Positions 6,762-55,894 of a stretch of 64,000 bases of DNA are shown here, piece by piece. Below the pieces are notes generated by a model. It was not told the DNA's origin and did no database searches. It saw only the letters and a list, made by a program, of their open reading frames with translations. Every line of letters begins with the position of its first letter. Position 1 is the first letter of the stretch. The stretch comes from Subtercola frigoramans. Lineage in GTDB: Bacteria; Actinomycetota; Actinomycetes; Actinomycetales; Microbacteriaceae. The translations under genes and the position numbers were made by a program. The stretch covers positions 1,178,001 to 1,242,000 of the forward strand of contig NZ_JAFBBU010000001.1 in assembly GCF_016907385.1 (NCBI RefSeq), written 5' to 3'.

Positions 6762-9700
6762 CTAAAGGAGGCCCAGCGATGCGCCTCGGCGAACGGCCTC
6801 AGCGCGGCTGTTCACCTCGAGCTTCACGAAGATGTGCTTCGTGTGGGTGCGCATGGTGTTGAGCGAGACGTAGAGCTCGCGGGCGATCTCGGGGCCCGAG
6901 AGCTCGGTGGCCAGCAGTCGCAGGACGTGCAACTCGCGTTCGCTCAGTATTCCGTTCTGTATCCGGTTCTCTACCCCACTCTCTACCCCACTCTGTATCC
7001 CACGCTGCATCCCGTTTAGTGCAGTCTGGCCGGAAGGAGGCGGAAGGACTGAGCTGACCGAACTGACGGAACTGACTGAACTGCCCGTGACGGCCGGGCC
7101 TTCGCGCAGAGCCATGGTGAGCTGGCGAACAAAATCAGGCCGGATGCCTGCGTCGGCCGCAACGCGGAGCAGAGCCAGCATCGGGGCTCCCTCGTCGAGG
7201 AACAGGCGCAGGTGACCTTCGGGTTCGGCGAGCGCGAGGGCGCGTTCGAGCGACTCGAGCGCGAGCGAGGTTTCGCCTTGCGCCTGGAACGCGGGGGCCT
7301 GGAAAGCGGGGGCCTGGAACGCGGGGGCCTGGAAAGCGGGGGCCTGGAACGCGGGGGCCTGGAACGCGGGGGCCTGGAAAGCGGGGGCCTGGAACGCGGG
7401 GGCCTGGAACGCGGGGGCCTGGAAAGCGGGGGCCTGGAACGCGGGGGCCTGGAAAGAGAGGGCCTGGAAAGAGAGGGCCTGAAGCACGAGGATTTCGCTG
7501 GCTACACACAGCCGATGGCCGTCTTCAGCCGCTTTGAGCAGTCGAGCGAGCAACACCCGCGCACTGTCGAGGGAGTCGCCGTGAGGGTTCAACCAGTGCT
7601 CGGCCAGCAGAAGCCTGGCGAGGGTGACGTGCCCGAACTCGCGGAGATAGTGCGGTTCATCCGTGACATCCAGACCCTGTTCCTCGACCCACGCGCGGGC
7701 CTCGGGGACGAGCCCCTGCCTGAGGTGGATGCGTGCGCGCATCCCGCCGATCGGGCGAACGTCGGGAAAGAACCCGCGGCGGTAGTGTTGCTCTGCCTCT
7801 ACCAGCGCATCGAGAGACAGCCCGTAGTCACCTTCGGCCTCGTGGACTCGTGCCGTGGCCACGAACCAGCGGTAGCGGTGTTCGTGCGAGAGGGCGGCGT
7901 CGCCGAGCTCGGTGCTCGCCGCCAGGTGGTGTTTCGCCAGCGCGAGTTCGTTGCGTTCGCGCAGCACATCGGCGAGGCCCGCGTGGAGGTCGGCCGTGGG
8001 CTGCCCGCTGGTGCCATGCCCGCTGTTGCCTTGCCCGCCGCTGTCACGCCTGCCGTTGCCCTGCCTGCCATGAGCATGTCCGATCGACTGCTGCAGTGCA
8101 TCCTCGTACCTTCTCTCAGCTTCGCGCAGTCGGCCGAGGGGAAGCAGCATGTCGGCGATCACCATGGTCGTGCTGAGGGCATCCGTGAGGTTTCCCGCCA
8201 GGCGCAAGCTGGTCGCCGACGCCCCGAACGCGTTCACGCCCGCCTCGAGGTCACCGCTCGCCCACGAAGCGATACCCAGCAGGCCGGCCGACGCGCCCCG
8301 GCCCAGGTGATCGTCGGGGCCCGTCGCATCGAAGGCTCGCTGGGCGTGCAGCGTGAGACCAGCCTGGTCTCCGGTTGCCAACGCGATGGATGCCCGGTAG
8401 AGCTCGATCGTCACCGGCAGTGTCTCCAGCTCCCCGCCGGGTTCTGAGCTGTGGGCGTGTGCGTCGCCATCGCCATTGCCATCGCCATTGCCATCGGCAT
8501 TGCTTGCGAGCAGCTGTTCCGCTTGAACCAGCTGACGCTCGACCGAAGCGATGTCACCGGCGACCAGCGATGACCAGGCGGAGAACACGAGCAGCACGGG
8601 CCTGCGCTCCTTGGTCTCGTCGGGAAGCCGCGCCAACCAAGCGAGGAGAGTCGAATCCTGCCTGCTCTTCCGCACGCCCGGGATGGTCAGCTCGATCAGA
8701 CGAGCTGCTCGTTCGAAATCGGGTGCCTCGAAAGCATGCCTGATTGCCTCTTCGGGTGATCCGTTCAGCTCGAACCACGTGCTGGCGCGAATGTGCAGTT
8801 CACCGACGTCCGGTTGGCGTGCGTGCAGTTCGCGGTCGTCGGGTGCATGGGTCGGGGAGGGGGTATTCGCGAGCAACCTCGAGCGCAACACATCGGTGAA
8901 GAGGTGGTGATACCGATACCACTGCCGCCGGTCATCCAGAGGCACAATGAAGAGGTTCGCCCGTTCGAGCGACTCGAGCATCGCGGCGCTGTCGGTGTGC
9001 CCGGTCACGGCGTCGCAGAGCGGGCCGCTGAGACGCTCGAGGATGGCAGTCTGGCCGAGGAACTCGCGGACCTCATCGGGAACGTGGTGGAGCACCTCTT
9101 CGGCGAGGTAGTCGATGACGAACCGGTTGCTGCCGGTGAAGGCGTCGATGAACGTGTCGATCATGCGAGGCGCATCGGTGCTGTCGCGTAACGAACCCAA
9201 CGAGAGCGCGGCGAGCTGGAGCCCGGCGATCCAGCCCTCGGTGCGCGTCTCGAGGGCCACGACATTCTCGGGGGTGAGCGAGAGACCCGTCACCTGGGCG
9301 AGGAATGCGGCTGCCTCGTCGGGGGTGAATCGCAGATCGGCCGCGCGCACTTCGGTCAGGTTGCCGCCCGCCCGCATCCGTGCCAGCGGGAGGAGGGGAT
9401 CGGAGCGACTCGACAGAGCGACGTGCATCGTGGCGGGAAGATGATCGAGCAGAAAGACGACCGCGTCACGCACCCTGGCGTCTTCGATGAGGTGGAAGTC
9501 GTCGAAAAAGAGGATCAGGGGGCTGGGCTTGTGGTTTGTGCTGGCGTTCCCGTGGGAGACGGCGGTGCCGTCAGAGATCGCGTTGATGAGCGCGGTCAGG
9601 GTTGCTTCGGCAGATGCGCTGGGGTCGACCTCACCTGTTCCCGTGCCCGTGCCCGATCCCGTGCCGTCACCGATGCCGATGCCGATGCCCGGCTCGGCCT

Positions 9701-9983
9701 GATGCAGGGTTGCGGCCAGGTAGCTGAGGAACCGGGCGAGGTCGTTGTCGCGCTCGTCGAGTGACAGCCACGCAATGCGCACCCGCGGATCCCGCTGGCG
9801 CGTGTGGTCGATCCACTCGGCGAAGAGCGTGGTCTTTCCGAACCCGGCCGGCGCTGAGACGAGGGTCAGCTTTCGCCCGGCCCGAACGCCTGCGCCCAGC
9901 TGGTCGACGAGGCGGGGCCGTGAGATCGCCTGGGGTCGCGGTCGCGGCACGAAGAGCTTTGTAGCCAGAACAGGCATCGCCAT
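6762..9983 (-). CDS. LuxR-type transcriptional regulator of the MalT/LAL (STAND ATPase) class
   Basis: A 1073-residue regulator. The N-terminus has a P-loop ([10 protein letters not shown], about residues 43-52) and a Walker B-like L-I-L-F-F-D-D-F-H segment near residue 160, the signature of MalT/LAL STAND ATPases. A long helical TPR-like region follows, and the protein ends in a LuxR HTH ([13 protein letters not shown] and [11 protein letters not shown]) in the last 65 residues. Such proteins bind ATP and an inducer, oligomerise and activate nearby operons. Simple-sequence inserts are numerous: G-T-G-S-G-T-G, G-N-G-D repeats, eleven Q-A-P-A-F copies shortly before the HTH, and S-S-V repeats. 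The minisatellite segment should act as a flexible linker between sensor and DNA-binding domains. The gene precedes the DUF4386 operon on the same strand. Confidence 0.9.
7291..7485 (-). repeat. 15-bp coding minisatellite (Q-A-P-A-F), 11 near-identical plus 2 diverged units
   Basis: On the plus strand the unit GCGGGGGCCTGGAA(A/C) repeats eleven times without other change from 7291 to 7455, alternating irregularly between final A and C. Two diverged units (GAGAGGGCCTGGAAA and a partial one) follow to about 7485. In the gene it encodes eleven Q-A-P-A-F pentapeptides and two Q-A-L-S-F. Near-identity between copies points to recent expansion. Confidence 0.95.
8007..8066 (-). repeat. 15-bp tandem repeat inside the LuxR-type regulator gene, 4 units
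   Basis: Units at 8007, 8022, 8037 and 8052 of the form GC(T/C)GTTGCCNTGCC(C/T) with substitutions. It encodes a Gly/His/Ser/Asn-rich loop in the TPR-like region. Confidence 0.7.
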
Positions 9984-22900: not shown

Positions 22901-23760
22901 GTAGCCTCACGCTGCACTACCTCGAGGGTGCCGGCGGCATGCCCGACAGCGAGACCGGGGCCGTCGAGAGCGTCGATGCCGAGGTCGAACGGGTGGTCTG
23001 GCTCGTCATGGACCACGCCCAGAAGTACCCGCGCGAATCGCTCATGGTGATCACGGCCAGTGCAAAGCATGCCGTGCGCGTGCAGCAGGCTGTGCTGTCG
23101 GCGTTCGCCAAGCGCAGCGACCTCAGCGACTTCATCCTGAAAGACAGGGCAGAGCCGTTCATGGTCGCCACGCTCGAGCAGTCGGTGGCGCAGAGCCGCG
23201 ACCGCGTGATCTTCTCGGTGGGTTACGGTCGAACCCCGCACGGCAGGGTGTTGACCAACTTCGGGGCCCTCGCGAAACCGGGCGGCGAACGCCTCCTCGC
23301 CATCGGCATGACGCGGGCTCGACGGTCGATGGACATCGTGAGCTGCTTCAAACCCGCCGATATCGACGAAGAGCGAATGAACTTCGGCGTCGTCACGCTT
23401 CGCCAGATCCTCACCGAGGCTGAGAACGGGCCGACCCCTGACACCTTCTCAAGCCCCGGGGATGCCCTGCTGATCGACCTCGCACGGCGCCTCGGTGCCC
23501 GCGGGCTCGAAGTAGCGTTCGAACACCGCGGCAAGCTCACGCTCGTCGCCTCCTACGAGGGCCGGGCCGTTGCCGTCGAGACCGACTCGGTTGTGCACTC
23601 GATGAGCCTCCGCGAGTCACTGCGATTGCGCCCCGACATGCTCAAGCGCCTCGGCTGGCACTACCTCCGTGTGCACAGCTTCGAGCTGTTCACCGACCCC
23701 GAGGCTGTCGCCACCAGGATCGCCACTGTCATCGGGGTGCGCCAGCTCGCTGCTGTGTAG
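19918..23760 (+). CDS. SF1 (Dna2/UPF1-like) helicase-related protein with eroded ATPase motifs and a C-terminal restriction-endonuclease-like domain
   Basis: A 1280-residue protein laid out like actinobacterial DUF4011-type SF1 helicases. At the Walker A position (about residues 348-357) it reads L-P-G-T-G-G-T-Q-T, with no Lys. At the Walker B position (about 874-880) it reads V-L-V-D-A-G-A where helicases have D-E-A-S. Motif III reads G-D-P-V-T-Q-T instead of G-D-x-x-Q-L. Later motifs are better kept: S-Y-R-A-G-G-E-D followed by N-H-R-F-Y, and G-M-T-R-A-R-R near 1130. The last ~90 residues resemble the MTES_1575/Vsr-like nuclease fold (V-A-V-E-T-D, then L-G-W-H-Y-L-R-V). It is probably unable to hydrolyse ATP. 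The GTG start at 19918 has TAGGGT 6 nt upstream, a leaderless pattern. Confidence 0.75.
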   Translation: MWRADKKRESDPTAADSRMADSTVPDDERAATIWGRRGDFDAVHGRSSSGLGAGPGEGGKSGLVISPDDLVEPSRERWREELRELGGVSSLLHFDDAPRSRVDLTTTHPSGLAQFITGNATLLSSLIRDELALRSARIAAGAITDKGVELRSVRGIDSVHLAIGLAQWKITDAEQNDTHFTAPVLLRPLLIRRYGRDFELKLRGLPFVNPELARALQEQFQITLDADAMVALAATNGVFKPQPVIDHLRGLTSHLPWFSVQPRLVVSSFADVANSMVSDARQLDHPVLDALAGSLTARRAVQESYHPVDATPQDARPPSTDTLLLDADAEQENVIAQISAGNSLVVKTLPGTGGTQTIVNAIGSLTGQNKRVLVVSPRRLSLRGIARRFTDVGLPGIAVSPRTLRRDLIQSIGRNEKATQPHVADVDEALVRLRHVLLDYRGSLSRVDPLLKVSVLDSLRELARLSLLPHPPATTARLDRQSLEALASGRSRAAKTLIKAAALGEFRYGPDDSPWYGASFDSAEDATNAHNTAKRVHRTDLPSLLTRAYELIGQTHMRQFTTVSELGSYLRLLLDIRETLDKFLPVVFDRSLTDIIAATGPRRDSAQMTGTSRRRLRSLAKEYVRPGVHVGDINASLRRIQQQRVLWHRYAAAGIPPEVPTGLADVQVAFQRVNEDLLRLDVPLGTLGTARQLNELPIGELIGLLDALAADSEVLANLQERTALLDTLRELALDPLLTDLSQRHVPESAVADELELAWWQSVLEQMLANDRALLGANTGILDRLEADFRLVDEAHASVSGQILAWQLAETWSVGVADHADEAASLKSLLRTDVVDSVTLQRAAPYLSKVLAPIWLASPYEVAEISDDIVFDAVVLVDAGATTLAENAAAIRRARQVIAFGDPVTQTPSRFEIAVPAVVQPAPRSSVADTRSVEERSVEELASDSALARLAELVPTLSLTRSYRAGGEDLAELVNHRFYNGKIDSLPWAGTYLGHGSLTLHYLEGAGGMPDSETGAVESVDAEVERVVWLVMDHAQKYPRESLMVITASAKHAVRVQQAVLSAFAKRSDLSDFILKDRAEPFMVATLEQSVAQSRDRVIFSVGYGRTPHGRVLTNFGALAKPGGERLLAIGMTRARRSMDIVSCFKPADIDEERMNFGVVTLRQILTEAENGPTPDTFSSPGDALLIDLARRLGARGLEVAFEHRGKLTLVASYEGRAVAVETDSVVHSMSLRESLRLRPDMLKRLGWHYLRVHSFELFTDPEAVATRIATVIGVRQLAAV

Positions 23761-23938
23761 CTGTGTGTAGCTGTGTGTAGCTGTGTGTAGCTGTGTGTAG
23801 CTGTGTGTAGCTGTGTAGCTGTGTAGCTGTGTAGCTGTGTAGCTGTATAGCTGTATAGCTGTATAGCTGTATAGCTGTATAGCTGTATAGCTGTATAGCT
23901 GTATAGCTGTATAGCTGTATAGCTGTATAGCTGTATAG
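23753..23938 (+). repeat. Composite microsatellite: 10-bp units (x5), then 8-bp units (x4 and x12)
   Basis: Starting with CTGTGTAG, whose last three bases are the stop codon of the helicase-like gene, the array runs through five perfect CTGTGTGTAG decamers (23761-23810), four CTGTGTAG octamers (23811-23842) and twelve perfect CTGTATAG octamers (23843-23938). Every unit contains TAG. The perfect copies imply recent slippage. It lies between convergent genes. Confidence 0.97.
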
Positions 23939-23967
23939 CGTGTGCTTGGCGCGTGCATGAGCGCGCC

Positions 23968-28938: not shown

Positions 28939-29610
28939 TCACTCCAGGCCGCGGGCGGCCAGCGCATCGGCCAGGTCGTCGGAGTGTTTCAGCGACATGA
29001 CCAGCAGCGGTACGACGAACGTGCCCAGGCGAACCGGAACGCCCCGAGCCCGCTGGGCCTCGCGGATCGTGCCGGCGAACCCCGCAATCACCGGGATCGT
29101 GGTGATCGTGAGGGCGAGCAACAAACCGATCGCCCGGGGGTTGACGCCGAATCTGGTGAACGGGCCGAGTGCCCGTTCGGTGGAGTCGAGCAGGTCGGGG
29201 ATGCGTGTGGTCAGTGTGATGAGCGAGGCCATCACGATCACGGTCAGAACACGACCCGTCGTCGTTGCGGCGGTCGCGAACGGCACGAAGATGAGCTGCG
29301 TGACGAGCATGACCACCACGACCCACCGGACGGCGAGCACCTGCGCCACGATCTCCCTGGCTCCGAATCCGGCGAGGAGATAGGCGGCAACGGTGATGGC
29401 TGCGGCGACAGGCAGGCTCCACCCGTTGCCTGACCACCCATTGCCTGACCACACGCCGCCTGACCACACGCCGCCTGACCACCCGCTGCCTGCCCACGCG
29501 CTGCCGGCCAGCACGCTGACGGCGATCGCGAAGCAGGCGAAGAGAAGCACTTTCAGGCCGGCCGGTGCGCGGTGCACAAGGCTCGACCCCGGGCGATACA
29601 GCGAGATCAT
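28939..29610 (-). CDS. bioN: Energy-coupling factor transporter transmembrane protein (EcfT/BioN)
   Basis: A 223-residue membrane protein with about five helices, the coupling subunit of an ECF-type vitamin transporter. It starts S-L-Y-R-P-G-S-S-L-V-H-R, typical of BioN/CbiQ, and carries A-L-G-P-F-T-R-F-G and E-A-Q-R-A-R-G-V cytoplasmic coupling segments that contact the ATPase. A loop near residue 45 is a Trp/Ser/Gly repeat (V-W-S-G-G, N-G-W-S-G) encoded by 15-bp units. Last gene of the bioY-ligase-thiolase-bioM-bioN operon, overlapping bioM by 4 nt (ATGA). Confidence 0.85.
   Translation of the reverse strand: MISLYRPGSSLVHRAPAGLKVLLFACFAIAVSVLAGSAWAGSGWSGGVWSGGVWSGNGWSGNGWSLPVAAAITVAAYLLAGFGAREIVAQVLAVRWVVVVMLVTQLIFVPFATAATTTGRVLTVIVMASLITLTTRIPDLLDSTERALGPFTRFGVNPRAIGLLLALTITTIPVIAGFAGTIREAQRARGVPVRLGTFVVPLLVMSLKHSDDLADALAARGLE
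29423..29512 (-). repeat. 15-bp tandem repeat in bioN, 5-6 units
   Basis: Units at 29423, 29438, 29453, 29468 and 29483 of the form (C/A)C(G/A)(T/C)(T/C)GCCTGACCAC (the 29453 and 29468 copies identical), with a diverged sixth at 29498. Encodes the Gly/Trp/Ser-rich periplasmic-side or cytoplasmic loop after the first helix. Confidence 0.9.
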
Positions 29611-30374
29611 GCGTGGTCCCTGGCGTAGCTGTCGATGACGGCCGCCGGCTCACCGAGGTCCACCAGTCGGCCGCCCTCGAACCGGATCGCGACATCGCAG
29701 CGGGCGGCGAGCGCCATGTTGTGAGTGACAAGCACGACCTGCTGGGGCAGCGTGTCGAGCAAATGGGCGCTGATCCTGCGGGTGTTCGCCGCATCAAGCA
29801 GCGCCGTCGGTTCGTCGGCGACCACAAGGCTGGGTTCGGTGATGAGCACGGCACAGAGGGCGAGAAGCTGTTTCTGCCCACCTGAGAGGCTGTGGGCCGG
29901 GGCTTCGGCGTGCTGAGTCAGGCCGAAGGTCTCGAGCGCTTCGGCGACACGGTCGGCAACCTCGATGCGGCTCAGCTTGCGACCGTGAAGCAGACGACCA
30001 CGCAGCGAGAAGGCGACGTCTTCGGCGACCGTGGGCATCACGATCTGGGCGTCGGGGTTGCTGAAGATGAATCCGACCGTGCGGCGCACGTCTCTGCCCT
30101 GCTTCACCGGGTCGAGTCCGTGCACCCGGATCGAGCCTGAGGTGGGTGTGACAAGCCCATTGAGCAGGCGCGCGAAGGTCGACTTGCCCGAGCCGTTCGA
30201 GCCGATCACGGCGATTCGTTTCTGGCTCAGCAGCACCGACACGTTCGTCAGCGCCGGGCGGTCGCCGAATTCGACGGACACGTCGTCAAACACGATCTGT
30301 GGATGCTCGCCCTGCGTTTGCTCGCCCCGTGGATGCTCGCCCTGCGGCTGCTCGCCCTGTGGTTGCTCGCTCAC
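29607..30374 (-). CDS. bioM: ECF transporter ATP-binding protein (BioM-like)
   Basis: A 255-residue ABC ATPase: Walker A G-S-N-G-S-G-K-S-T (about residues 56-64), Q-loop region with F-S-N-P-D-A-Q, signature L-S-G-G-Q-K-Q-L-L, Walker B V-V-A-D-E-P and switch H in V-T-H-N-M. It powers the biotin-specific component BioY together with BioN. The N-terminal ~25 residues are G-E-Q-P-Q / G-E-H-P-R pentapeptides encoded by 15-bp repeats and lie before the first strand of the fold, so they look like an acquired extension. The ATG overlaps the stop of the thiolase gene (ATGA). Confidence 0.88.
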   Translation of the reverse strand: MSEQPQGEQPQGEHPRGEQTQGEHPQIVFDDVSVEFGDRPALTNVSVLLSQKRIAVIGSNGSGKSTFARLLNGLVTPTSGSIRVHGLDPVKQGRDVRRTVGFIFSNPDAQIVMPTVAEDVAFSLRGRLLHGRKLSRIEVADRVAEALETFGLTQHAEAPAHSLSGGQKQLLALCAVLITEPSLVVADEPTALLDAANTRRISAHLLDTLPQQVVLVTHNMALAARCDVAIRFEGGRLVDLGEPAAVIDSYARDHA

Positions 30375-30379
30375 CGCAC
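30305..30379 (-). repeat. 15-bp tandem repeat at the bioM start, 5 units
   Basis: Units at 30305, 30320, 30335, 30350 and 30365, of the form GCTCGCC(C/T)(T/C)G(C/T)G(G/T)(N)T; the last is diverged and crosses the bioM start codon and the overlapping thiolase stop. It encodes the G-E-(Q/H)-(P/T)-(Q/R) repeats. Confidence 0.9.
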
Positions 30380-31616
30380 CACCTCGAAGAGCGCTGCAAC
30401 ACCCATTCCTCCGCCGATCGCGGCAGTCGAGATGCCGAGCGTTCCGGCTGGCGCGCCTGCTCGTACGAGCCGTGAGAAGAGCCGCACGGCCCCGACGGCA
30501 CCGCTCGCGCCCCAGGGGTGGCCGAGGGCGAGGGCGCCGCCATCTGAGCAGACACGATCATCCACTCGGAGCGTCGTAGCGCGGAGGTCGTCGGGCTCGC
30601 CCGTCGTGAGTTCGGCCAGCCCGAGCGCCAGAAGCACAACCAGGGTCTGCGCCGCGAAGGCTTCGACGATCTCGAACGCAGTGATGTCCGCGATGGTCAA
30701 CCCTGCGTCGGCGAGCAGGCGGTCGACGGCGCCGACGGGCCCGATCCCGGGGAGGGCGGGGTCGCAGCCGACTGTTGCGTGCGCCCGCAGTGCCAGGCCG
30801 GGTGCCGTGCCGCGTGCGTGCGCAGGGACGAGTGCGACCGCGGCTGCTCCGTCACTGATCCTGCAGGAGTTGCCTGCCGTCACGGAGCTGCGGCTCCCCC
30901 CGCCAGACGCCAGGCCCTCCTCGGCCGAGGGATAGAGGGGTACGAATCGACCGAGCAACGCGGAGATGCCCGCGCGTGGGCCGTCGTCAGCCTGAATGCC
31001 GCCGACTGCGACGATCTCCTGGCCGAACACTCCACCCTGAGTGGCCGCCACGGCCAGCCGGTGGCTGCGCTCGGCATAGGCATCCTGTGCCGCACGGTCG
31101 ATACCGACGATTCGGGCGAGTGCCTCGGCGGCCGGGCCCATCTCCGGGTCGGGAAAGCCCGTGGGTGCAAACGGCGCTCGCGCGTAGACCCTTCCATCCT
31201 GAATCCGGAGTGGTGCGGTTGAGGCGCTCTCGGTGCCTCCTGCGATGATCATGCGATTGTCACCAGCGCGGATCGATTCCGCGGCCGAGATGATGGCCGA
31301 CAGGCCGCTGCCGCACTGCCTGTCGAGTGTCATCCCCGGCACAACGACGTCGAGACCTGCCGCAAGTGAAGCAGAGCGGGCTACGTTTCCACCCGGACCC
31401 ATGCAGTTGCCCAACAGAACGTCAGCGATCTCCAGCTGCAACCCTGTCGCGCGGTGGGCATCGTCGACACACGACCGGATGATCGGCGCGGCCAGCTCGT
31501 CAGCCGTGACTCCGGCCAGGCCCCTGCCCTTCGTTGTGATGGGGGAGCGGCGTGCGGCGACGATGACGGGCCAGGATGCGCGGTGTGCGCCAGCAGCGTC
31601 AGCAGTGCTAGCAGCG

Positions 31617-31624
<8 letters not shown>
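30371..31624 (-). CDS. Acetyl-CoA acetyltransferase family thiolase (YhfS-like)
   Basis: A 417-residue thiolase. The nucleophile is in L-D-R-Q-C-G-S-G-L-S (about residue 102), the second site in E-A-F-A-A-Q, the conserved His in G-H-P-W-G-A-S-G, and the usual second Cys position near the C-terminus reads A-I-G-G-G-M-G, so the second catalytic Cys appears replaced (commonly C-x-G). The replacement would impair a normal thiolase cycle or mark a specialised enzyme. In Bacillus subtilis the BirA-controlled operon yhfU(bioY)-yhfT-yhfS combines the same three functions, so a role in acyl-CoA supply for biotin metabolism is the likely context. It overlaps the ligase gene by 8 nt. Confidence 0.82.
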
Positions 31625-33137
<1,513 letters not shown>

Positions 33138-33161: not shown

Positions 33162-33779
33162 TCACACGCTCATCGACACAGGCTTGCGGACTCCGCTCCC
33201 GAACGCTCGCGGATACGCGCGCCAGAGCGCCATGGTGATGATCGTCGTGACGACGACCTTGATGAGGTCGCCCGGTAGGAACGCGAGCGCTGACACGGCA
33301 GCAGAACCCAGCGGCAGGCCGAGCACAAACGCCTGGACGGGGATGCCGATTGCGTAGACCACGACGATGCCTCCGACCTCGCAGCCGAGAGCTGTGCGCT
33401 GCCAGGTCGGTTTGATGCGGTCGCCGCGCACAATGGCACCGATCACGAAAGCGCCGACGATCCACCCGATGAGGTAGCCCGCCGAGGGGCCCACGAAGAC
33501 GCCGGCGCCACCGCGGCCACCCGAGAGCAGCGGAAGGCCGATCAGCACGAGCACCTCAAAGACGGTCACGGCGGCCGCACCGCGCCACGAACCGAGAATC
33601 GCTCCGGCGAGCATCACTCCCAGAGTCTGCGCGGTGATGGGTACTGCGCCATTGAACGCGGGAATCGCGCTCGGGATGCCCAGCACGGCGATGATCGCGG
33701 CGAAGACGGCGATCTTGGTGATGTCGCGGGTGGTGATGCGTGTGGTGATGTGGGTGTTGTTGCGGGCCTGTCGGGCCAT
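33162..33779 (-). CDS. bioY: Biotin transporter BioY (ECF S-component)
   Basis: About 205 residues with six helices and the BioY hallmarks V-P-I-T-A-Q-T-L-G-V-M-L-A-G, G-R-G-G-A-G-V-F-V-G-P-S-A-G-Y-L-I-G-W and F-L-P-G-D-L-I-K. It binds biotin in the membrane and works with BioM/BioN. The ATG at 33779 has AGGAG 6 nt upstream; an alternative ATG at 33815 has an AATACT box 7 nt upstream and would add 12 residues as a leaderless start. First gene of the five-gene biotin operon; the phased operator array lies immediately upstream. Confidence 0.92.
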   Translation of the reverse strand: MARQARNNTHITTRITTRDITKIAVFAAIIAVLGIPSAIPAFNGAVPITAQTLGVMLAGAILGSWRGAAAVTVFEVLVLIGLPLLSGGRGGAGVFVGPSAGYLIGWIVGAFVIGAIVRGDRIKPTWQRTALGCEVGGIVVVYAIGIPVQAFVLGLPLGSAAVSALAFLPGDLIKVVVTTIITMALWRAYPRAFGSGVRKPVSMSV

Positions 33780-33817
33780 CGTGAGCTCCTGCTGCGTTGT
33801 GGTGAGACGAGACATCC

Positions 33818-33967
33818 TGGCCAGTATTCAGCTGAACAGTATTCAGCTGAACAGTGTTCACCTGCCCTGTGTCCGCCCGGCCAGTGGTGACCCGGCCAGT
33901 GGTGACCCGGCCAGTTTCCACACGGTAAACGGTAACCTGAACAGTGTTCACCTGAACAGTGTTCATG
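33818..33967. promoter_or_regulatory. Ten-unit, 15-bp-phased operator array between bioY and the TetR-family regulator
   Basis: Ten consecutive 15-bp units start at 33818, 33833, 33848, 33863, 33878, 33893, 33908, 33923, 33938 and 33953. Three (33848, 33938, 33953) carry the perfect palindrome TGAACAGTGTTCA and one (33833) a single-mismatch form. The six others (including two identical CGGCCAGTGGTGACC copies) keep the C-A-G-T core or the phase only. The palindrome resembles the published BioQ box (TGAAC-N3-GTT). Intact boxes lie at the two ends, next to each promoter. Confidence 0.85.
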
Positions 33968-33975
33968 ATAGCTGA

Positions 33976-33981
33976 TAGACT
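33976..33981 (+). promoter_or_regulatory. -10 box of the TetR-family (BioQ-like) gene
   Basis: TAGACT ends 7 nt before the ATG at 33989, placing the transcript start at or next to the start codon (leaderless). The last perfect TGAACAGTGTTCA (33953-33965) ends 10 bp upstream, within the -35 region, which predicts autorepression. Confidence 0.7.
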
Positions 33982-33988
33982 AGCCACG

Positions 33989-34684
33989 ATGAACGATGAG
34001 CCTGCAACGACTGCCAAGTCGACCCGTCACTCCCGGGCCGATGTGGTGGATGCTGCACTCGGCATCCTCGACGAATTCGGCCTGCCCGACCTCACCATGC
34101 GTCGACTTGCGGCGAAACTCGACGTGCAACCGAGTGCTCTGTATTGGCACTTCGACAACAAGCAGGCGCTTCTGGCTGCGGTCGCCGACCGGATCATCGC
34201 GGGGGCGCGGGTGCGAGATGTAGCAGAGGCTGCTGGGGATGGCCTGGGCACCAGGGCCTCAGAACGGGCATCCTGGCACGTGACAACCAGGGCAGAGGCG
34301 TTGGCCCTGCGTGACGCGCTGCTCGCGTATCGAGACAGTGCCGAAGTGGTGTCGAGCACCCTGGCGCTTGGACTTGGAGCAGGCGAAGCGCACTGTCGGT
34401 TGGCGGCGGCAATCGCCAGTGGGGGGTTCGATGTGCAGGCAAGCGAGGCATCGGCGTCCGCCCTGTTGCACTACCTGCTCGGCCATGTCTGGCACGAGCA
34501 GCAGAGACTGCAGGCCGACAGTCTGGGGGTCGTGGCGCCTGGCTATGCAGTTCATCCCGAATCCGCGAGTGACGTGCTCGCAACTGGGGGTGGGGCGAGC
34601 CCGGTAGACGGCACAGCAGCGTTCGAATTCGGCCTCACGTTGCTCCTCGGGGGGCTTTCGCAGTTGACACGAGTTCGCAGCTGA
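33989..34684 (+). CDS. bioQ: TetR-family regulator, probable biotin repressor BioQ
   Basis: A 231-residue TetR-family protein: N-terminal HTH (D-V-V-D-A-A-L-G-I-L-D-E-F-G, then L-T-M-R-R-L-A, and P-S-A-L-Y-W-H-F) followed by a TetR_C-type ligand/dimer domain. It is divergent from bioY and shares with it an operator array of TGAACAGTGTTCA boxes. In other actinobacteria BioQ, a TetR-family regulator, represses biotin synthesis and transport genes through such boxes, responding to biotin status indirectly. An in-frame ATG at 33959 lies inside the operator and upstream of the -10 box, so 33989 is chosen. Confidence 0.82.
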   Translation: MNDEPATTAKSTRHSRADVVDAALGILDEFGLPDLTMRRLAAKLDVQPSALYWHFDNKQALLAAVADRIIAGARVRDVAEAAGDGLGTRASERASWHVTTRAEALALRDALLAYRDSAEVVSSTLALGLGAGEAHCRLAAAIASGGFDVQASEASASALLHYLLGHVWHEQQRLQADSLGVVAPGYAVHPESASDVLATGGGASPVDGTAAFEFGLTLLLGGLSQLTRVRS

Positions 34685-54109: not shown

Positions 54110-55894
54110 CTACTCGGCTGCGCGCAGGGCTCGCAGGGCATCCCGCCGCTTTGCCTGCTCGATCGGGTCGGGAACGGGCAGTGACGCGAGGAGGCGCTGG
54201 GTGTAGGGATGCTGGGGGGCACCGAGTACCTCGGCGCCTGTTCCCTCTTCGACCAGCTTGCCCTTGTAGAGCACGGCGATCCGGTCGGCGAGCAGGTCGA
54301 CAACGGCGAGGTCGTGGCTGATGAACAGTGCGGCGAACCCGAATTCGCGTTGCAGTTCGGCGAAGAGCTCGAGCACCCTGGCCTGCACGGAGACATCGAG
54401 CGCAGACGTGGGCTCGTCGGCGATCAGGAGGGTCGGTTCAAGGGCCAGGGCGCGGGCGAGGCTGGCGCGCTGGCGCTGGCCGCCGCTCAGCTCGTGCGGG
54501 TAGCGGTCACCGAAGGCCTTCGGCAACTGCACGGCCTCGAGGAGCTCGTCGACACGTCTGCGGGCATCGCCCGGGTTGCGTGCGACGCCGTGCACGATCA
54601 ACGGTTCTGCGACGCACTCGGCGATGGTGAGCAGCGGGTTGAAGCTCGACGCCGGGTCCTGAAAGACAAACCCGATGTCGCGCCGTGACTTCTTGAACGT
54701 TCGTTCGCGAACGCCGTTCATCTCGTGTCCCAGCACGGTGAGTGACCCACCGGTGACCCGGGTGAGACCGGCTATCGCGCGGCCGATGGTGGTCTTTCCC
54801 GATCCGCTCTCGCCGACCAGGCCGAGCACTTCGCCCGCACGGATCTCGAAACTGACGCCGTCGACGGCGACGAATCCGCCTCGACCGAGCCGGCCGGGGT
54901 ACTGGATGCCGAGCTGGTCTGCAACCACGACAGGGGTGGCATCCTGCCAATCTGCCAGGCGGGCAGAGGCGCGTTCTGCGGTCTGCAGGGCTCCCTGGCC
55001 GACGTGGGGAACCGACGCCAACAGGGATTTCGTGTACTCGTTCTTCGGGTTCGAGAACAACGTCACAGCGTCGGCCTCTTCGACGACTCTGCCCTGGTAC
55101 ATGACCGCTACGCGGTCGGCGAGGTCGGCCACGACGCCCATGTTGTGAGTGATCAGCACGATGGCGGTGCCGAACTCGTCCCGGCATCGACGCAGGAGGT
55201 CGAGGATCTCGGCCTGCACCGTCACATCCAGGGCCGTTGTCGGTTCATCGGCGACGATGAGCCCCGGGTCGAGAACAAGGGCCTGCGCGATGACGACGCG
55301 CTGCTTCTGGCCGCCCGAGAACTGGTGCGGGTAGTAGTTCACCCTCGTATCGGGGTCGGGTATTCCGACCCGACCGAGAATCTCGATGGCCTTCGCCTTC
55401 GCCTCGGCGCGTGAGTACTTTCCGTGCGCGCGAAGCCCCTCGGCGATCTGCCAGCCGACGGTGTAGACGGGGTTGAGCGCCGTCGATGGCTCTTGGAAGA
55501 CCATCGCGGCGTCAGAGCCACGGATGCCCCGCAGCTGTTTCTTCGACAGCGAGATCACGTCGTTCGTGACAGTGTCCCGATTGGCGTTGCCGCCGCGCCT
55601 GGCAAGAATTACGGCACCGCGCGCAGTCGCGGTCTCGGGGAGGAGGCCGAGGATCGTCTTCGCCGTGACGGTCTTGCCGGAGCCGCTCTCTCCGACGATC
55701 GCGAGCACCTCGCCGGCTGCGACCGAGAGACTCACTCCGTCGACGGCTTTGATGGCACCGGCGTCGGTTGCGAAGGAGACCTCGAGGTTGCGGATGTCGA
55801 CGACAGGCCGGTTGTCGCCTGGCCCTGCCTCACGATTCTGATTCTGATTCCGATTCTGATTCTGATTCTGGTTCTGGAGATCCCGCGCATTCAT
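54110..55894 (-). CDS. Fused peptide ABC transporter ATPase (OppD-OppF/DppD-DppF)
   Basis: A 594-residue protein with two complete ABC domains. Each has Walker A G-E-S-G-S-G-K-T, a signature (S-G-G-Q-K-Q-R-V in the first, S-G-G-Q-R-Q-R-A in the second) and Walker B D-E-P-T-(T/S)-A-L-D. The first half continues with the OppD-type loop R-D-E-F-G and H-N-M-G-V. The N-terminus reads Q-N-Q-N-Q-N-R-N-Q, encoded by a 6-bp repeat before the first strand. It energises the oligopeptide importer with the DppB/DppC permeases; its ATG overlaps the permease stop (ATGA). Confidence 0.92.
   Translation of the reverse strand: MNARDLQNQNQNQNRNQNQNREAGPGDNRPVVDIRNLEVSFATDAGAIKAVDGVSLSVAAGEVLAIVGESGSGKTVTAKTILGLLPETATARGAVILARRGGNANRDTVTNDVISLSKKQLRGIRGSDAAMVFQEPSTALNPVYTVGWQIAEGLRAHGKYSRAEAKAKAIEILGRVGIPDPDTRVNYYPHQFSGGQKQRVVIAQALVLDPGLIVADEPTTALDVTVQAEILDLLRRCRDEFGTAIVLITHNMGVVADLADRVAVMYQGRVVEEADAVTLFSNPKNEYTKSLLASVPHVGQGALQTAERASARLADWQDATPVVVADQLGIQYPGRLGRGGFVAVDGVSFEIRAGEVLGLVGESGSGKTTIGRAIAGLTRVTGGSLTVLGHEMNGVRERTFKKSRRDIGFVFQDPASSFNPLLTIAECVAEPLIVHGVARNPGDARRRVDELLEAVQLPKAFGDRYPHELSGGQRQRASLARALALEPTLLIADEPTSALDVSVQARVLELFAELQREFGFAALFISHDLAVVDLLADRIAVLYKGKLVEEGTGAEVLGAPQHPYTQRLLASLPVPDPIEQAKRRDALRALRAAE

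Follow-up and report, generated by a model that had tools for sequence, protein, structure and literature searches.

The primary work on BioQ operators, in Corynebacterium glutamicum and Mycobacterium smegmatis, is said to be that of Brune (2012) and Tang (2014). BioQ is described as a TetR-type repressor of biotin uptake and synthesis genes (PMC3398298, PMC11089781, PMC4554459). The site predicted for it in Corynebacterium reads TGAAC-N3-GTTCA (PMC3398298), and the relevant section of PMC4554459 gives no direct evidence that BioQ binding needs biotin metabolites. In the parts of these sources drawn on here, the C. glutamicum and M. smegmatis systems are like the locus reported below, combining a TetR-type repressor, the site TGAAC-N3-GTTCA and biotin genes. 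On the same basis, two differences stand out—here the boxes are arranged in tandem at a fixed 15-bp pitch, in rows that reach ten units in the bioY–bioQ spacer, and control there extends to uptake and synthesis, whereas in a genus without BioB over the cut-off it probably covers uptake only.

Of the further biotin systems suited to comparison, BioR has a site that differs from that of BioQ, and Bacillus subtilis has yhfS and yhfT, which are thiolase-like and ligase-like. As far as the excerpted text of PMC4554459 goes, BioR boxes likewise occur as two tandem sites before biotin operons in Paracoccus denitrificans and Brucella melitensis, but the repressor, unlike BioQ, belongs to the GntR family, and the copies number two. 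In the B. subtilis bioY-yhfS-yhfT genes, as outlined in PMC11089781, bioY and downstream partners are likewise under a biotin regulator; repression is exerted by BirA at a bioO sequence, unlike the BioQ type considered here. For QacR and CprB, the part of PMC4150764 used here describes a pair of dimers that approach the DNA from opposite sides, as is proposed below, and reports cooperative binding. Those dimers share one site of 22–32 bp (PMC4150764), whereas the boxes of the present locus are complete, non-overlapping and 13 bp long with a 2-bp linker; no site shared by two dimers, as in the QacR/CprB dimer-of-dimers operator, was found among them. The open-access literature searched (subscription papers, the primary BioQ ones included, lie outside it) yielded no paper dealing with both BioQ and Microbacteriaceae.

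The locus lies in a stretch of 64,000 nucleotides of Subtercola frigoramans DNA that was analyzed as a whole and is called the window. It is read here, with a probability of roughly 0.65, as a BioQ-type operator serving bioQ and a divergent biotin-uptake operon, with functional pairs of boxes 15 bp apart, a row grown by slippage and an unbound middle. Judged from sequence comparison, the array is real and statistically secure, and it is largely explained as a tandem BioQ operator, conserved among relatives, that has here grown beyond its usual size. What is new is comparative, namely the apparently family-wide 15-bp pitch.

The protein encoded at 33989–34684 matches TetR_N (7.2e-13) and TetR_C_1 (1.2e-10) and thus has a TetR-family fold with a helix-turn-helix. 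Its best solved-chain matches are 5xs9, 5yek and 5yej, titled 'TetR family transcriptional regulator' (E about 3e-28), which we take to be M. smegmatis BioQ; a literature search found no paper for these codes. The next solved match is TetR class G (8.4e-24), and among the NCBIfam models TetR itself scores best, though under its cut-off. The divergent bioY and a box equal to the published predicted BioQ site make it probable that the gene is of the BioQ type. Boxes of BioQ type near bio genes had already been proposed by the first-pass annotation, and they are indeed found between bioY and this gene. No BioB match over the family cut-off was obtained in the 12 genus genomes, whereas 7 of 14 control genomes have one; these bacteria thus probably depend on biotin uptake. 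The features of the locus are collected in Table 1.

Table 1. Features of the bioY–bioQ locus in window coordinates; gene functions are predicted.
Feature	Position	Strand	Basis
Ten-unit 15-bp array	33818..33967	.	Unit split, phase statistics
Unit 1, drifted, TGGCCAGTATTCAGC; half-site positions kept 7/10	33818..33832	.	Unit comparison
BioQ-type box with one mismatch, TGAACAGTATTCA	33833..33845	.	Pattern search
BioQ-type box, perfect; bioY-side pair with 33833	33848..33860	.	Pattern search
Five drifted in-phase units; half-site positions 4–6/10 each	33863..33937	.	Phase and unit comparison
BioQ-type box, perfect	33938..33950	.	Pattern search
BioQ-type box, perfect; bioQ-side pair with 33938; equals pair position in relatives	33953..33965	.	
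Possible bioQ -35, TGAACA, within last box	33953..33958	+	Read by eye
Possible extended bioQ -10, TGA-TAGACT, 7 nt ahead of ATG	33973..33981	+	Read by eye
bioQ, TetR-family repressor	33989..34684	+	Domain and structure-chain matches
bioY, biotin transporter S component	33162..33779	-	Domain search; ORF to 33815
AMP-binding acyl-CoA ligase, downstream of bioY, same strand	31617..33137	-	Domain search
Thiolase	30371..31624	-	Domain search
Energy-coupling ATPase, BioM-like; best NCBIfam match under family cut-off	29607..30374	-	Domain search
CbiQ-type transmembrane component, BioN-like	28939..29610	-	

Read directly, positions 33818–33967 form ten consecutive 15-bp units (150 bp) comprising three perfect boxes, one single-mismatch box and six drifted units, as the first-pass annotation had it. 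A pattern search of the window placed the exact TGAACAGTGTTCA box at 33848, 33938 and 33953. Intact boxes lie at both outer ends of the array, again in agreement with the earlier description, in the pairs 33833/33848 and 33938/33953, and the former, on the bioY side, keeps 19 of 20 half-site positions. Two drifted units had been called identical, and those at 33878 and 33893 are; four of the inner drifted units, including 33908 and 33923, start with CGG. Tandem rows inside the array are reported by TRF from 33822, 33876 and 33935. Open frames cross the array on both strands, but a repeat of 15 bp, a multiple of three, lets frames stay open, and most relatives have just two units there; on these grounds an interpretation as coding sequence was rejected.

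The six drifted units had also been said to keep the 15-bp phase, and for the five inner ones this was borne out statistically. Compared in phase with the TGAACAGTGTTCACC consensus, they match at 46 of 75 positions, whereas shifting the consensus to any of its 14 other registers gives 9–21. This value was reached by none of 20,000 dinucleotide shuffles, with the best rotation allowed, and by none of the 63,626 other 75-mers in the window, where the maximum was 38. When one of the two identical units is removed, the remaining four still match at 36 of 60 positions, which none of 20,000 shuffles and none of 63,641 window positions attained. Hence, the phase of the array is not due to chance. The weakest unit, 33923, agrees with the consensus at 7/15 positions, a level attained by 5% of window 15-mers, but it agrees with the neighbour type CGGCCAGTGGTGACC at 10/15, above its 7/15 against the intact box. 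The inner units retain 0–3 of 6 dyad pairs which, with half-site positions at 4–6/10, is too little for a good site.

The array had been described as filling the intergenic region without remainder, and this is correct only for a bioY start at 33815, to which the reading frame is open. An AGGAG ribosome site at 33786–33790 on the minus strand, six bases ahead of an in-frame ATG at 33779, suggests that the latter is the true start; the closest relative (G008) carries CATCGTGAGCTCCTGCTGC, at this ribosome site and start, without a change. With that likelier start, the intergenic region would measure about 209 bp (33780–33988), of which the array occupies 150. On the other side, the TGAACA of the last box stands at -35 distance from TGA-TAGACT, and G008 has TAGAGT at the place of the TAGACT of the window. 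The bioQ transcript could be leaderless. A consensus sigma-70 promoter scan of 33700–34050 detected no promoter for either bioQ or bioY.

For comparison with relatives, a protein-picked sample was used for the main count of the pitch, because pattern searches with three mismatches also catch unrelated DNA (L056–L062 and L072 contain neither BioQ nor BioY). Herein, 150 genomes of the family (Microbacteriaceae) were drawn and all those with a BioQ match of E 1e-30 or better were kept (n=33 including the window, with at most 19 candidates scored per genome). In all 33 loci bioY is divergent from bioQ, and 30 of them place the two boxes closest to bioQ at a pitch of exactly 15 bp; the exceptions are two loci at 14 bp (L175, L179) and one with a single box (L180), where a stop codon interrupts the bioQ match. 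The window belongs to the majority, with its boxes at 33938 and 33953 exactly 15 bp apart beside bioQ. The 15-bp phase that the first-pass annotation had expected in related genomes is thus present in 30 of 33 loci, and for the same reason the pitch is no peculiarity of this array. On these comparisons it is a conserved operator property of the family and its usual BioQ spacing.

Within the genus, a close bioQ occurs in 11 of 12 genomes (the twelfth, G011, has a 34% match at best), and a 15-bp box pair adjoins it in all 11; in G007, bioQ is a fragment at a contig end and one box of the pair carries one mismatch. Among the named actinobacterial loci (L005–L013), the pair is found in eight of nine, twice with one mismatched box, and L012 has a single box. 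No box pair was seen at four Proteus TetR matches. A larger set of 80 non-redundant two-box loci, partly fetched by motif and hence biased toward it, shows a pitch of 15 in 76, of 14 in two and of 20 in two. The 76 loci of pitch 15, a set that leaves out the non-BioQ or cut-off loci L014–L018 and L031, L012, L055 and loci with identical operators, reveal how the pair is built. All 152 of 152 boxes have purine-any-pyrimidine as their three central bases, 64 of 76 loci have CC as the linker, and the central bases differ between the paired boxes in 69 of 76. Most pairs are, therefore, not recent copies, so that recent copying does not account for the persistence of pitch and linker. In 50 of the 76 loci, TATAnT follows one base past the bioQ-side box; in many of them, judged by eye, a start codon comes six to eight bases after it, so bioQ may be transcribed without a leader. 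An abutting TATAnT is absent from the window and G008.

Pattern searches extend this picture. Allowing at most three mismatches, the pair was found in 117 of 398 family genomes, with five for the backward control as read from the list. Exact boxes 0–30 bp apart occur in 90 of 398 genomes of the family and 41 of 396 of the order, and no match to the backward control of this pattern was noticed in either list. By reading of the list, box spacing varies more outside the family, where 22 of 34 two-box genomes of the order depart from 15 bp (12 have a pitch of 15, five of 14 and 17 of 16 to 34); in two of the 12 at pitch 15, boxes 30 apart have a one-mismatch box between them. At one locus of another family of the order (L097), two boxes 18 bp apart were seen by eye directly upstream of a biotin-synthase-like gene.

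The same searches bear on whether the boxes might serve a TetR regulator other than the adjacent one, or something other than biotin control. The palindrome occurs twice, 32–34 bp apart, at five loci of the genus g20 without a BioQ or BioY match (L083, L085, L086, L088, L121), and at L083 and L085 it lies, by eye, between an epimerase-like gene and the gene of another TetR protein; the box is, thus, not unique to BioQ. Yet among 94 fetched loci (L050–L143), 62 have a perfect box with a second one (at most two mismatches) 15 bp off, and 60 of these encode a BioQ relative; of the other two, L107 has the boxes beside bioY and L120 has them at a locus with ligase and thiolase genes. As the predicted BioQ site is moreover identical to the box, service to another regulator is highly improbable.

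Control by BioQ appears to be confined to a single locus in this genome, given that three of its four perfect TGAAC-N3-GTTCA boxes lie within the array, while the backward control pattern has no perfect match there. The fourth perfect box is at contig position 3567180, inside a transporter-like open frame, and one-mismatch boxes outside the array are at 55762, 285737, 1954452 and 3371180. No biotin gene was recognised behind any of these five sites (4 kb each, with open frames judged by eye). With two-mismatch sites included, the genome gives 69 forward matches as opposed to 16 for the backward control.

Rows longer than a pair recur among relatives. When successive upstream 15-bp steps are followed and a unit is counted at 7 or more of 12 positions, three or more successive units are found in 22 of 84 loci, a count without the non-BioQ or cut-off loci L014–L018 and L031 in which L005 and L055 are the same DNA counted twice; the background is 1.4% of 15-mers (782 of 55,196 in the same DNA). 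The window scores just two units under this rule because its next unit falls below 7, while G008 has five and L119 and L122 have four. Further examples include L153 with four units at 15 bp (at most two mismatches; about six by eye), L179 with four boxes in a row at 14-bp pitch, and L160, L165 and L167 with three. L105 contains six units with one step of 14 bp. The ten units of the window form the longest row found, other species having one to six; copy number, for which variation between strains had been suggested as possible, does vary between species (1 to 10 units, one genome per species being compared). Altered boxes whose dyad is kept by matching changes were observed in L069 and L153 (TGGAC-GAC-GTCCA and TGAGC-AGT-GCTCA).

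Such rows raise the idea that BioQ coats the whole array as a cooperative 15-bp chain, weak inner units included, so that repression would become steeper or stronger according to how many units there are. The recurrence of longer rows (L153, L179, L160, L165, L167, L105), the dyad symmetry of the altered units in L069 and L153, and the phase kept across all ten units are consistent with it. Slippage alone would preserve the phase, however, and the inner units of the window retain no more than 4–6 of 10 half-site positions and 0–3 of 6 dyad pairs; a continuous chain is, hence, improbable.

Growth of the array by tandem duplication, as claimed in the first-pass annotation, is supported by the comparison of the units, whereas the accompanying picture of a simply decaying middle is not. 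The two identical inner units and the derived CGG start shared by four indicate that drifted units were probably duplicated again after drifting. When the window is aligned with G008, the inner units find no one-to-one partners. The features of minisatellites and slippage are found, namely head-to-tail copies, some identical copies and a unit number that varies among species, and the surroundings are of the same kind. In the window, 59 non-overlapping tandem arrays were counted, three of them operator rows, which amounts to 9.2 per 10 kb; ten samples of 20 kb drawn from this genome gave 36, or 1.8 per 10 kb, so that the window has about five times their mean density. The samples are uneven, with 0 to 11 arrays each, the 11 being at 1.30–1.32 Mb, about 58 kb past the window. 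Five samples each of G008 and G005 gave 1.4 and 2.7 arrays per 10 kb. A period of 15 bp is the commonest in the window (20/59) and in the genome samples (12/36); it is not the commonest in G005 (2/27 arrays), and in G008 (3/14) it is tied with 12 bp (3/14). Slippage can thus explain the growth of the array, which need not have been selected, and may have acted where a 15-bp direct repeat already stood. A further step would be that minisatellite slippage tunes the number of sites, with dimers placed end to end at 15 bp, so that gain or loss of units quickly shifts the repression of biotin uptake; this is a speculative and unlikely extension.

Alternatively, the bioQ-side pair (33938, 33953) might alone be the operator, and the other eight units, bioY-side boxes included, recent slippage without a role. 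Relatives mostly have just that pair beside the bioQ start, and G008 keeps no other pair intact. The window is also rich in repeats, 15-bp ones being the commonest and occurring in coding genes too. Against this, the near-intact bioY-side pair, in comparison with the heavily drifted inner units, looks like selection or very recent copying. A lone bioQ-side operator is, on balance, doubtful, although more than a passing thought. The weaker half of the preferred reading is the role of the bioY-side pair—in G008, where bioY is likewise distant, no pair but the bioQ-side one is intact, which speaks against a need for the other.

In the preferred reading of paired boxes at both ends of a slippage-grown row, a putative BioQ-type TetR repressor would control its own gene and a divergent operon of bioY, ligase, thiolase, bioM-like and bioN-like genes. 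The functional element would consist of two TGAAC-RNY-GTTCA boxes at a pitch of exactly 15 bp, with one BioQ dimer on each and the dimers on nearly opposite faces of the DNA and without overlap. By arithmetic, a 15-bp step corresponds to a turn of about 154° between neighboring boxes, so the earlier statement that neighboring dimers lie on different faces can be sharpened to roughly opposite ones. Most relatives have one such pair between the divergent genes. In this lineage, tandem slippage would have lengthened the row to ten units, and the inserted units would have moved its ends apart, leaving one pair at the bioQ promoter and a slightly imperfect pair near bioY; the inner units, their dyad lost, are probably unbound. 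Most likely, then, BioQ pairs bind both ends and the middle is inert. What the analysis establishes directly is the units, their phase, the pitch conserved in relatives and the gene neighbourhood; binding of the boxes by this protein, a function for each of the two pairs, a single operon and an inert middle are inferences.

The part that merits specialist attention is the fixed family-wide pitch. A 15-bp pitch that is conserved while the spacer bases vary points to a dimer–dimer geometry under selection, an idea that short DNA fragments would suffice to test. Since unit number ranges from one to ten among natural species, these offer a ready series for relating operator number to repression.

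Several repeats elsewhere in the window were observed in passing. Within a 1073-aa frame on the minus strand (6762–9983), a 15-bp unit is repeated about 13-fold at 7282–7481 and encodes a QAPAF repeat. At 23749–23939, 8-mers of the TGTATAGC type pass into 10-bp units. Among the genes of Table 1, 15-bp repeats lie near the N termini of the BioN-like (29419–29505) and ATPase (30304–30370) genes, and short-period runs at 32047–32295 in the ligase gene give rise to poly-Asn and poly-Thr tracts in the protein.
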